Assembly (NCBI GenBank): GCA_947460245.1
Contig: CANHGL010000002.1
Span: 67,588-131,587 of the forward strand
DNA length: 64,000 nucleotides
From: Sphingobacteriales bacterium
Lineage (GTDB): Bacteria; Bacteroidota; Bacteroidia; Chitinophagales; JADIYW01
Direction: 5' to 3'
Numbering within the stretch: position 1 is the stretch's first letter; every line of letters starts with the position of its first letter. Position numbers and translations under genes: made by a program. Positions 38,402 through 42,820 of the stretch are shown here, in pieces. The notes under the pieces are model-generated. The model did not search any database. It saw only the letters and a program-made list of their open reading frames with translations, and had not been told where the DNA came from.

Positions 38402-39232
38402 TTATTTTAACTGATATGCAGCTACTGTGTTGCTAAAGAAGGTAGGTATATATATTATCCTGCTCGTTGGGTTATATCCTATATCGGCACTGTTTATATT
38501 TTGTTCCCTCTGGTCTAGTAAAACTTGCTTATCACCGTTCAGTTTTATAAAGTAGACAATTCCACTCCAGCTACTAACGATAAATTCATCCGGGCTAATC
38601 TGCTCAATTCCGTCTGTACTTTCATCCATTCCGCTAACTAATAGAATAGGGTGTCCATATTGATCTACATGGTACAAGCCGCCATTATTTAAAAGATAGA
38701 TTCCTTGTTCTGTTGCTAGAAGACCGTTGGGTCTTTTTAAGTTTTCTATGAATACAGAAATCTTTTCTTTTTTTATTTTATGTACTTTACCAGTTCTGGT
38801 ATCACTTACATAGAGGATACCCTTGCTGTCTATCGCAATATCATTTAAAAATAGGGCACCCGTAATAGGAATATGCTTAATGACTTTTCCAGTAGGAATA
38901 TCAATACCTATTATTTCATTTAGGTCTGTTACATATAATGTTTGCTTATATATTCGCATTCCTTTAGGTGCGTTCAGATTGGTAATCCAATCTTTCTTAA
39001 TAATATTACCCTCTAAATCTAACTTTGCGATGAATCCTTTTCCATCTTTTTTATCCGGTTCTCCATCAATATTTGATACCAGTAAATAACCTCCTTCTGG
39101 GTAAAACAATACAGATTCAGGCGTCTTTAACAAGGGGCTGGTTTCCCAGATTTTCTGAATAATATGTTCCTGGCTATAGCTACTTTCTACAGATATGGAA
39201 AATAATAGGATGTAAAAATATTTCATTTTCAT
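38402..39232 (-). CDS. secreted SMP-30/gluconolactonase-like beta-propeller protein
   Basis: The 276-residue product has a signal peptide (about 1-20, ending SSYSQ). Propeller-blade repeats of the SMP-30/NHL kind follow: GGYLLVSNIDG, LNAPKGMRIYKQTLYVTDL, LNDIAIDSKGILYVSDT, LKRPNGLLATEQGIYLLN and FIVSSWSGIVYF. Such periplasmic or extracellular propellers may be lactonases or binding proteins; catalytic metal ligands are not obvious to me. It is divergent from a TonB-dependent receptor across a 145-base region rich in TCTAAAT heptamers, so the two may be co-regulated and act on the same compound. Confidence 0.7.
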   Translation of the reverse strand: MKMKYFYILLFSISVESSYSQEHIIQKIWETSPLLKTPESVLFYPEGGYLLVSNIDGEPDKKDGKGFIAKLDLEGNIIKKDWITNLNAPKGMRIYKQTLYVTDLNEIIGIDIPTGKVIKHIPITGALFLNDIAIDSKGILYVSDTRTGKVHKIKKEKISVFIENLKRPNGLLATEQGIYLLNNGGLYHVDQYGHPILLVSGMDESTDGIEQISPDEFIVSSWSGIVYFIKLNGDKQVLLDQREQNINSADIGYNPTSRIIYIPTFFSNTVAAYQLK

Positions 39233-39253
39233 AAGTTAAGTAATATTGATTTG

Positions 39254-39372
39254 ATTTAGATTTTATATTTCGCTACTTATTTTTAGGTATTAAAATAACA
39301 ATATTAGTTATTGTTTACTATTTAGATTGATTCTAAATTTGTACTTCTAAATTAATTTTAATTAGTCTAAAT
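39254..39372. promoter_or_regulatory. cluster of five TCTAAAT/ATTTAGA heptamers, candidate metalloregulator operator
   Basis: Exact heptamers lie at 39254-39260 and 39320-39326 (minus orientation) and at 39332-39338, 39346-39352 and 39366-39372 (plus). The pair 39320-39338 forms a perfect inverted repeat, ATTTAGA-N5-TCTAAAT, overlapping the -7 box of the TonB receptor. The half-site resembles those of DtxR/MntR- or Fur-type metal repressors, but the factor is not identified. Confidence 0.5.
39311..39341 (+). promoter_or_regulatory. promoter of the TonB receptor: TTG-N20-TAAATTTG
   Basis: A TTG (39311-39313) and the -7 box TAAATTTG (39334-39341) are 20 bases apart. Transcription would start near 39347, giving a leader of about 30 bases. 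The candidate operator overlaps the -7 box, so binding would block RNA polymerase. Confidence 0.6.
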
Positions 39373-39377
39373 AAGAA

Positions 39378-41627
39378 TTGATGATTAGGATAATAAATGT
39401 ATTTTTTCTTTCTTTTTTTATACTCTCTTTAAATGCTAAAGATAGCACCCAATTTTTGGATTCAACATTCCAATTACAGGAAGTAAATATAAAAGCCAAT
39501 CAGAATTCAAATGGGATTGGTTTTTTTGGATATGTAAAGGATCAGATTATACTGACAGGTAAAAAAAATGAGTTAATCAATTTAAACCAGACTGATGGAA
39601 ATAAGATTACTAACCAGTCAAGACAGGTTTTTGCTAAAATACCGGGCATCTTTGTTTGGGAAAATGAAAGTTCTGGTACACAAATTAATATATCAACCCG
39701 CGGATTGAGTCCTAATCGCAGTTGGGAATTTAATGTAAGGCAAAATGGATATGATATCACCCCAGATCCATTCGGTTATCCGGAGGCTTATTACAACCCA
39801 CCGTTGGAGGCCGTTAGTAAAATTCAGGTTATTCGGGGTGCTGCTGCTTTACAATTTGGAACTCAATTCGGAGGTCTTTTAAACTATATATTACCCAAAG
39901 GATCTGATAAAAAGAAGATAAGTTTTGAGACCTCCAATAGTACAGGAACGAATGGACTGGTTAGCACCTTTAATAGCATTGGTGGTACTATCGGGAAATT
40001 TAATTATTTCACTTACTATAATTTTAAGCGTGGCAATGGATGGAGAGATAATAATGATTTCAGTGTACACAATGCTTTTGTGCAGGTGCAATATGCTTTT
40101 AATCCTAAGGTCTCCATATCTGGAGAATATACTTTCTCCAGATATATTAATCAACAACCAGGAGGCTTAACCGATTCCATGTTTAGGGAAAATCCAAGAC
40201 AATCCCTCAGAAGCAGGAATTGGTTTAATGTAAACTGGCATATTGCATCGCTGCAATTGGAATATAAACCTAAAAGTAATCTGTCTATTACCTGGAAAAA
40301 TAATATGGTAGTTGGTGAACGAAATAGCATAGGATTTAATAAATCTATTACTACAAAGGATAGTATAAATGCCTCCACGTTGGAGTTTAATGCCAGACAA
40401 ATTGATCGAGATAGCTATAAAACTTTTAATTCAGAAGCAAGATTTTTTTATACCTATAAGATATTACAAAAAGAACAAGCTCTGAGTGCTGGTGTGCGAG
40501 CATCTTATGCAAGTACTTTGCGAAGACAAATAGGGAAGGGTGATTTTGGAACAGATTTTAATCTTTCTTTGCAGCAAGATAGTTTTCCCAGGTCTTTGAA
40601 TTTTACTTCTACAAACATTGCTTTGTTTGCAGAAAACATGTTTCATTTTGGTAAATATTTTTTTATTACTCCTGGAATACGTTACGAATTTGTACGTAAT
40701 ACTGCAAATGGCAGGATAGACATCCAGAGAGGCACACCGGTATTAATGCCTGAGGGTAATAAACAGTATCATATATTTTTGGCAGGCATTGGATTGCAAT
40801 ATGATCTTTTCAGTACAACAAACTTCTATGCAAATATTACACAAGCATATCGTCCGGTATTATATTCAGATTTGACACCATCCTCCACAACAGACGTTAT
40901 AGAGGATAATTTGAAATCATCCTCTGGTGTTAATATCGACTTTGGATATAGGGGAACCTATAAAGATTTTCTCACCTTTGATTTTTCAGGATACTATTTG
41001 TTGTATAAAAACCGTATTGGAAATGTAATACGCTATGTTGAGGATAATCCGGCAAATGCATCATATATTTTTAAATCTAACCTGGGAGATTCGAGAAGTG
41101 TAGGTTTAGAAGCTTTTGCAGAGATAGACTTAGTGAAGCCTTTTACGTCAAAACGTAAATTTGGAACGGTGAGTATATTCACTTCATTAGCTATAACAGA
41201 TGCCCGTTACAATGATTTTACGATTTATAAAAGCTCCGGATCATCACCTAATGTACAAATTAGTGAAATAAATTTAAAAGGAAAAAAAGTTGAATATGCA
41301 CCCTTGAATAATCATCGTTTTGGCTTAACATATAAGATTAAAGAATTTTCAACAACGTTTCAGGTTAGTGTAACTGGTAGCGTTTACACGGATGCGGAGA
41401 ATACAGAAACATCAAATGCTGCTGCTACTGTGGGTAAATTAAATGGTTATACTTTACTAGATTGGTCGTTCAGTTACTATTTTTTAAACCATTTTAATGT
41501 AAAGGGTGGTATTAATAATTTGACGAATAAACATTATGCTACGCGTAGATCCGGAGGTTATCCTGGTCCCGGTTTGCTGCCTGGAGACGGCCTTACGTGG
41601 TTTGTTTCATTTGGTATTAAAATTTAG
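39378..41627 (+). CDS. TonB-dependent outer-membrane receptor, FecA-like
   Basis: The 749-residue product has a signal peptide (about 1-20, ending LNAK). A plug domain follows (about 60-185; VFAKIPGIFVWENE, STRGLSPNRSWEF, KIQVIRGAAALQFGTQFGGLLNY), then a 22-strand barrel ending in DGLTWFVSFGIKI. The plug segment with two Gly-rich turns and the C-terminal YPGPGLLPGDG resemble FecA-type siderophore or Fe(III)-dicitrate receptors. It takes up an iron chelate or similar nutrient, powered by TonB. No carboxypeptidase-like N-terminal domain or FecR-signalling extension is seen. The divergent beta-propeller gene shares its control region. Confidence 0.88.
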   Translation: MMIRIINVFFLSFFILSLNAKDSTQFLDSTFQLQEVNIKANQNSNGIGFFGYVKDQIILTGKKNELINLNQTDGNKITNQSRQVFAKIPGIFVWENESSGTQINISTRGLSPNRSWEFNVRQNGYDITPDPFGYPEAYYNPPLEAVSKIQVIRGAAALQFGTQFGGLLNYILPKGSDKKKISFETSNSTGTNGLVSTFNSIGGTIGKFNYFTYYNFKRGNGWRDNNDFSVHNAFVQVQYAFNPKVSISGEYTFSRYINQQPGGLTDSMFRENPRQSLRSRNWFNVNWHIASLQLEYKPKSNLSITWKNNMVVGERNSIGFNKSITTKDSINASTLEFNARQIDRDSYKTFNSEARFFYTYKILQKEQALSAGVRASYASTLRRQIGKGDFGTDFNLSLQQDSFPRSLNFTSTNIALFAENMFHFGKYFFITPGIRYEFVRNTANGRIDIQRGTPVLMPEGNKQYHIFLAGIGLQYDLFSTTNFYANITQAYRPVLYSDLTPSSTTDVIEDNLKSSSGVNIDFGYRGTYKDFLTFDFSGYYLLYKNRIGNVIRYVEDNPANASYIFKSNLGDSRSVGLEAFAEIDLVKPFTSKRKFGTVSIFTSLAITDARYNDFTIYKSSGSSPNVQISEINLKGKKVEYAPLNNHRFGLTYKIKEFSTTFQVSVTGSVYTDAENTETSNAAATVGKLNGYTLLDWSFSYYFLNHFNVKGGINNLTNKHYATRRSGGYPGPGLLPGDGLTWFVSFGIKI

Positions 41628-42382: not shown

Positions 42383-42820
42383 ATGATAAGAAAAGTAGCA
42401 ATAGTTACAGTGTTTGCTTTGGTCGTGCTTCAGTTTTTCCCATCTTCGAGGAATTTAAATTCGGACTTAGTTGCATCTGATATTAGTATCGTAAAGCATG
42501 TTCCTTCAGATGTGATGGAGCTATTGCATGTTGCTTGTTATGACTGTCATAGTAATAATACACGATATCCGTGGTATGCTAGTGTTCAACCTTTAGGATG
42601 GTGGATAAATAGACATGTTGCACAAGGAAAGCATCATCTAAATTTTTCTGATTTTGGTAAATATTCTATTAAGAAGTCGAACCATAAATTAGACGAGATA
42701 GCAGAGATTGTTGGAGAAGGAGAGATGCCTTTGGGTAGCTATAGCTTAATGCATGCATCTGCAAGACTAAATTCAAATCAAAGGCAGTTGTTAATAAACT
42801 GGGCTAAGCAAGCTCAGTAA
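42383..42820 (+). CDS. membrane-anchored heme-binding domain protein, c-type
   Basis: The 145-residue product has an N-terminal membrane anchor or signal (about 4-20). A Haem_bd domain follows with one c-type heme site CYDCHSNNTRYPWY (CxxCH near 52-56), then PLGWWINRHVAQGKHHLNFSDF and the closing LNSNQRQLLINWA. The His/Met-rich middle probably supplies the second heme ligand (GEMPLGSYSLMH). The family, common in Bacteroidota, is thought to act in periplasmic electron transfer, often near c-type cytochrome peroxidases. It abuts the convergent polyprenyl synthase gene with no base between stops. Confidence 0.88.
   Translation: MIRKVAIVTVFALVVLQFFPSSRNLNSDLVASDISIVKHVPSDVMELLHVACYDCHSNNTRYPWYASVQPLGWWINRHVAQGKHHLNFSDFGKYSIKKSNHKLDEIAEIVGEGEMPLGSYSLMHASARLNSNQRQLLINWAKQAQ

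Follow-up and report, generated by a model that had tools for sequence, protein, structure and literature searches.

What should be made of five exact copies of the heptamer TCTAAAT/ATTTAGA in the 145-bp gap (39233-39377) between two divergent genes of a presumably uncultivated Bacteroidota species? The window, i.e. the whole 64,000-nucleotide stretch analysed (G000:C2:67588-131587, from a 2.2-Mb genome in 85 contigs), carries them at 39254 (-), 39320 (-), 39332 (+), 39346 (+) and 39366 (+), so that all five copies listed for this divergent promoter region by the first-pass annotation were found again. The placement of the genome in Bacteroidota follows from its transhydrogenase subunit, whose best named relatives come from metagenome genomes of this phylum, including a Chitinophagales bacterium at 84%. 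That annotation expected about 0.05 copies; recalculation for 139 positions on both strands gave 0.055 with the composition of the window and 0.11 with that of the region itself. A chance grouping in AT-rich DNA is one explanation to be considered, given that the gap has 16.6% GC and that the heptamer is without enrichment over the 64 kb as a whole (30 found, 27.3 expected). Against this, 5000 dinucleotide shuffles of the gap contained the word zero, one, two or three times in 4112, 818, 69 and 1 cases, respectively, and never five times; since any 7-mer class whatsoever reached five copies in only 7 of the 5000 shuffles, the cluster also holds after correction for the choice of word.

The five heptamers are non-equivalent: two pair up as the arms of one complete box, a third forms one arm of a weaker box and the remaining two stand alone (Table 1). 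The earlier description of two copies as a perfect repeat over the -7 box of a TonB receptor is borne out, as the 19-mer has perfect 7-bp arms and the overlap is seen; of its inner pairs, 8/12 is unmatched and 9/11 matched. A second reading of the same sequence, centred on G39329, gives a 7-1-7 repeat, TTAGATT-G-ATTCTAA (6 of 7 pairs), which is the layout of Fur-family boxes. The main box thus stands at the promoter of what, on the presumed substrate of the FecA-like receptor, is an iron-type gene, the -33 and -7 elements being those that we take to be such from the promoter consensus. Relative to the receptor ATG the main box lies at -61 and the weak box at -27. The receptor itself matches the Pfam families TonB_dep_Rec_b-barrel (7.6e-30) and Plug (1.9e-8), and the NCBIfam siderophore-receptor and FecA models below their cut-offs.

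Table 1. Features of the divergent promoter region and its two flanking genes (window coordinates)
Feature	Position	Strand	Remarks
Divergent gene, taken as beta-propeller	38402..39232	-	Weak match to ScyD/ScyE family
Lone heptamer near propeller start	39254..39260	-	Without second arm; absent from this place in G001
Presumed -33 element TTG	39311..39313	+	TTG-N20-TAAATTTG
Main (distal) predicted Fur box ATTTAGATTGATTCTAAAT	39320..39338	.	Holds heptamers 39320 and 39332; overlaps -7 box; 17/19 against Riemerella box; exact pattern enriched in relatives
-7 box TAAATTTG of receptor promoter	39334..39341	+	Exact TAnnTTTG; overlaps right arm of main box
Lone heptamer at presumed transcription start	39346..39352	+	Without second arm; mostly in alignment gap against G001
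Weak (proximal) probable Fur box AATTTTAATTAGTCTAAAT	39354..39372	.	14/18 consensus positions; holds heptamer 39366; in presumed 5' UTR
FecA-like TonB-dependent receptor	39381..41627	+	ATG 39381; ORF list starts at TTG 39378

The palindrome closely resembles a box already assigned to a regulator. In Riemerella anatipestifer the Fur box was derived as ATTTAGAATTATTCTAAAT (Guo et al. 2017, PMC5609570) and, according to the available text of that report, purified Fur bound selected promoters in EMSA, four having been chosen. Among the Fur-bound promoters is that of RAYM_01847, a receptor annotated for Fe3+-dicitrate, which has the box ATTTAGAATTATCCTAAAT at an ATG distance of 67 and is up-regulated both without iron and in the fur mutant (PMC5609570, available text). 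The window box is identical to the Riemerella consensus at 17 of 19 positions and to the RAYM_01847 box at 16 of 19; in both organisms the element is a 19-bp ATTTAGA-N5-TCTAAAT located 5' of TonB receptors and within 100 bases of the start, the binding and the iron response being results obtained in Riemerella. The E. coli-type Fur box GATAATGATAATCATTATC, also a 19-bp element over a promoter, is identical to the window box at only 7 of 19 positions. In the accessible parts of these papers, the abstract of PMC5609570 prints an E. coli-like box and its Results the ATTTAGA one, and PMC7976709 repeats the version of the abstract. For Riemerella feoAB, a Fur box and a 4-5 fold rise in the fur mutant are reported in the available text of PMC10434265, in agreement with repression of uptake, whereas the feoAB rows for the fur mutant in that of PMC5609570 have negative ratios, at odds with such repression.

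A genome-wide search for ATTTAGA-N5-TCTAAAT, suggested by the first-pass annotation, located sites before feoAB, sufB, sdhC, cytochrome and Fe-S genes, and did so again in relatives. Seven places were found in the own genome at 0-1 mismatch. Two are exact, against 0.09 expected by composition, and five have one mismatch, against about 3.1 expected, so that the one-mismatch places are argued from gene content and not from their count. The neighbours, named by eye, are the window receptor, sdhC-sdhA, a cytochrome c gene (of alternative complex III type, by eye), sufB, feoAB and a divergent Fe-S protein/phosphoribosyltransferase pair; a methylase-like ORF contains the remaining place. The Pfam score of the own sdhC is below the cut-off (23.3 of 25.8 bits); the sufB, cytochrome, Fe-S protein, transferase and FeoA products of relatives all pass theirs. 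At up to 2 mismatches there were 39 places in the own genome against 60 in the control, and a full-consensus search tolerating up to 3 mismatches gave 14 and 10, respectively. Nine additional weak own-genome sites with 2-3 mismatches (L262-L270) were rejected, lying mostly inside ORFs and with a total near the control level.

In 40 genomes (own included) the exact pattern occurs at 28 distinct places, compared with 3 for the reversed control, and in 198 genomes of the order at 161 places, compared with 21. Eighty distinct boxes of the own genome and its relatives were read, 72 with a flanking gene by rule and 8 without, two of the boxes lying inside ORFs. The largest gene clusters at these boxes are sufB (11), TonB receptors (9 entries, 7 loci) and a DUF4856 cluster (9 entries, 8 loci, the domain being known from one tested member), followed by the phosphoribosyltransferase and Fe-S pair (7 each), cytochrome (5) and sdhC (4); FTR1, FeoA, imelysin, ferredoxin, NqrA, RibBA and an ABM-domain protein occur singly or in pairs. 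Genes without a clear iron link are also boxed, namely those for PEPCK, the glycine cleavage T protein, acyl-CoA dehydrogenase and several unknowns. In favour of chance, the surroundings of related boxes show no clear enrichment of lone heptamers; nevertheless, the 161 against 21 places of the exact palindrome, often 5' of iron genes, and the failure of any shuffle to yield five copies make a chance origin of the cluster exceedingly improbable.

Several boxed loci merit separate mention. The phosphoribosyltransferase gene is boxed and divergent from the Fe-S protein gene at L017, L018, L019, L021, L024, L025 and L113 as well as at L006 of the own genome, the box lying 9-26 bases before its start in the seven relatives. 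Riboflavin genes of ribBA type have a box upstream in two genomes (L171, L173), and one box (L175:1007-1025) has on one side a lyase gene that looks fumarase-like by eye and on the other a gene for an ABM-domain protein, a family that includes heme-degrading enzymes.

The own genome encodes four candidate regulators, i.e. two Fur-family proteins, one DtxR and one Rrf2. The Fur gene (G000:C1:3406-3867) matches Pfam Fur at 2.9e-29, and the solved structures closest to its product are likewise those of Fur proteins; the second Fur-family protein (L012, at G000:C4:49708) is Zur-like by eye. Among the order's 198 genomes, 90 of the 132 with a Fur orthologue and 11 of the 66 without carry the exact motif (Fisher p 3e-12, shared ancestry ignored), and the ratio of motif places to reversed-control places is 143:12 in Fur-positive and 18:9 in Fur-negative genomes. 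Three clades in which the search found no Fur orthologue, family f20 (34 genomes), f16 (6) and genus g62 (5), jointly contain 2 motif places, fewer than the 5 of the reversed control, and are better read as about three losses. We observed that DtxR and Rrf2 are nonetheless common in these clades, with matches in 41 and 37 of the 45 genomes, respectively. The association is not absolute: 42 of the 132 Fur-positive genomes are without the exact motif, and nine of the 11 Fur-negative genomes that carry it are scattered. Four of these nine (G013, G079, G088, G127) are at least 91% complete, which counts against a strict link between motif and Fur, so that incompleteness cannot explain all such cases.

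The first-pass annotation had proposed a metal-dependent repressor of the DtxR or Fur type. Operators of DtxR/MntR-type repressors are of like size, a 19-bp palindrome being DtxR-like in this respect, and likewise serve metal genes, and the single DtxR-family gene of the genome is, by eye, beside an Nramp-like transporter gene. The motif does not, however, track DtxR: it occurs in 85 of 172 genomes with DtxR and in 16 of 26 without (p 0.30), is present in 15 of 20 Fur-positive, DtxR-negative genomes, and is represented by just the 2 places in the Fur-less clades despite their 41 DtxR-bearing members. Co-occurrence over the 198 genomes thus speaks against DtxR as owner of the motif, and operation of this palindrome by such a repressor is highly improbable, so that the Fur half of the original proposal survives (by box match, iron genes and tracking of Fur) and the DtxR half does not.

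A further candidate is another iron or Fe-S sensor, of the Rrf2/IscR type or the second Fur-family protein, both of which the genome encodes. Such an owner would suit the presence of Fe-S and respiratory genes (sufB, sdhC) among those boxed, and in the available text on Riemerella the genes for sufB, sdh and a quinone-binding cytochrome c oxidoreductase are iron-responsive also in the fur mutant. We nevertheless consider it very unlikely, with the sequence of the motif being that of an EMSA-tested Fur box, and with Rrf2 itself disfavoured as owner by co-occurrence over the 198 genomes, where the motif is found in 71 of 146 genomes with Rrf2 and 30 of 52 without (p 0.33) and where 37 of the 45 genomes of the Fur-less clades have an Rrf2 match.

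Fur was accordingly assigned because the palindrome matches a published Fur box, iron genes lie downstream of it and the motif tracks the Fur orthologue; we put the probability of an operator at 39320-39338 for this ferric uptake regulator, before the FecA-like receptor, at roughly 0.88. When iron is plentiful, an iron-loaded Fur dimer would occupy the palindrome, cover the -7 box and so block RNA polymerase, and a second dimer would reinforce this effect from the weaker box, 3' of the presumed transcription start; under iron scarcity, Fur would leave the DNA and the receptor would be made. Here we infer that Fur binds, that it represses, which metal it carries and what the second box does.

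Comparison with other receptor genes bears on this second box. It is the second-best site in the gap region, and a match of at least 14/18 arises alone in 5.5% of random 150-mers of gap composition. The receptor promoter of a genome of the same genus (G001) can be aligned; it keeps the weak box (15/18) and the -7 box (aligned letters TACATTTG), whereas the main palindrome is unrecognisable there. Receptor loci were read for the best 30 of 124 genomes with a match, including the window and one without upstream DNA. Among the 28 homologues with readable upstream DNA, a box of at least 14/18 is present in 11, no more than about 160 bases from the start, and 17 have none in the 200 bases examined; no such box (at least 14/18) was found in the nine homologues of the Fur-less family f20. 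Two-box promoters occur in L074, L086, L093 and L072, with boxes about 65-89 and about 26-29 bases before the ATG, and proximal boxes about 26-33 bases before the ATG recur in several homologues; L085 has its boxes at -58 and -81, and other homologues have a single box. As the weak box is kept in G001 and the two-box layout recurs in homologues, a role for heptamer 39366 as an arm of the weak box is plausible, and the weak box is probably a second Fur box of the receptor promoter.

Six genomes of the same family (G002, G004, G005, G007, G008, G010) have no box within 200 bases of the receptor homologue, which there lies directly 3' of another gene. In six further genomes (G038, G072, G101, G111, G136, G180) an exact box precedes a gene of the DUF4856 cluster, and some 4 kb downstream of that box, on the same strand, lies the homologue; our guess would be that the two genes share an operon in these genomes. 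A contig search for receptor relatives among named genomes found none.

The first-pass annotation had the repressor control both the receptor and the divergent beta-propeller. The former part of this claim stands, with a Fur box over the promoter, and the latter finds no support among the relatives of the propeller. This gene matches NCBIfam ScyE_fam at 2.7e-4, below the cut-off, and is without a Pfam match. That a single operator region should serve both genes is suggested by the 145-bp gap which they have in common and by a lone heptamer 22 bases before the propeller start. However, a box within 2 mismatches is upstream of none of 29 propeller relatives elsewhere (28-55% identical, possibly including paralogues, with upstream stretches of 0 to 482 bases, some very short), one of them (L065) having a box with 3 mismatches, and none of their upstream neighbours, read by eye, is this receptor (one contig being without a visible neighbour). 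In G001, the only further genome of this genus in which we found the propeller, the gene order is PntB, propeller, other ORF, META, Haem_bd, an unrelated ORF occupying the place of the window receptor, so that the propeller keeps its other neighbours there without receptor and without box. Therefore the receptor and its promoter appear to behave as a unit separate from the propeller; joint control is unlikely and the propeller is probably a bystander of the Fur switch. A gene for a haem-binding-domain protein (PF14376, window 42383-42820) lies near the receptor, and G001 has it and the META-domain gene in the same order.

Half-sites were also considered as a general auxiliary element around the 80 related boxes and were found unconvincing. 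Unmasked, lone heptamers numbered 32, where 48 permuted words averaged 5.8; once boxes with up to 2 mismatches had been masked, 11 were left, where 131 permuted words averaged 5.9 and 16 of these words did equally well, and the window locus itself supplies 3 of the 11. It is possible that heptamers 39254 and 39346 are present by chance.

The position of the box relative to the promoter differs between classes of gene. Offsets, i.e. the start of the -7 box relative to the end of the Fur-type box, were assigned by rule, in a table that supersedes a first, hand-compiled one (p 2.9e-7), the gene classes being set by ourselves and relatedness left uncorrected. With one-mismatch -7 boxes allowed, the offset is 10 or less in 16 of 27 uptake genes and 40 or more in 18 of 19 iron-using genes (p 1.2e-6, relatedness uncorrected); with exact -7 boxes only, the corresponding values are 14 of 23 and 9 of 10 (p 1.8e-4, relatedness likewise uncorrected). 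In four of the six cytochrome genes of complex III type, the -7 box begins 43-46 bases past the Fur-type box (the remaining two are at 95 and 148, the latter gene also having an exact -7 at 46); the distance is 53-56 bases in three of four sdhC genes, two of the four being from one genus, with the fourth at 36, and 55-57 bases in all eight Fe-S protein genes, always via a one-mismatch -7. A group of uptake genes of the DUF4856 cluster has offsets of 25-26 plus a second -7-like match at the box edge, the uptake receptor L165 gave no -7, and sufB offsets are mixed (28 in 8 of 12, one at 38 and three at -37, -33 and 6). In the own genome, the boxes L002:1246-1264, L003:1501-1519 and L006:1501-1519 (C8, C3, C30) have, like those of relatives, an activator-like geometry, with near-fixed distances to the promoters of the sdhC, cytochrome and Fe-S genes, respectively.

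This split points to repression of uptake genes and, possibly, to activation of genes that use iron, and we raise tentatively, as a rather doubtful proposal, that one Fur box may act by position in this order, repressing many uptake genes from over or beside the -7 box and, when Fur is iron-loaded, directly activating iron-using respiratory genes from a near-fixed distance upstream of the promoter. No paper on direct activation of sdh or complex III by Fur in Bacteroidota came up in our literature search. According to the available text of PMC5609570, iron shortage lowers the expression of sdh and of the gene for a quinone-binding cytochrome c oxidoreductase and raises that of sufB, by RNA-seq, also in the Riemerella fur mutant; because these responses persist in the mutant, iron can act on the genes without Fur in that organism, which argues against direct activation, whereas in the window genome sdhC and sufB carry the box. 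A fall of sdh in low iron, as described in the available text of PMC10434189 for P. gingivalis, P. intermedia and B. thetaiotaomicron, is predicted by either model, with activation or without.

The switch is of an ordinary kind for a Fur operator, here in a presumably uncultivated Bacteroidota species, and an unexplained motif cluster thereby becomes a named iron switch. Beyond this locus, our analysis suggests that the Fur box known from tests in a single duck pathogen is recognisable in much of a Bacteroidota order, so that the iron regulons of such genomes would be predictable from sequence. The spacing found in iron-using genes makes direct activation by Fur in Bacteroidota testable and, if true, such activation would constitute an iron-sparing response needing no small RNA.
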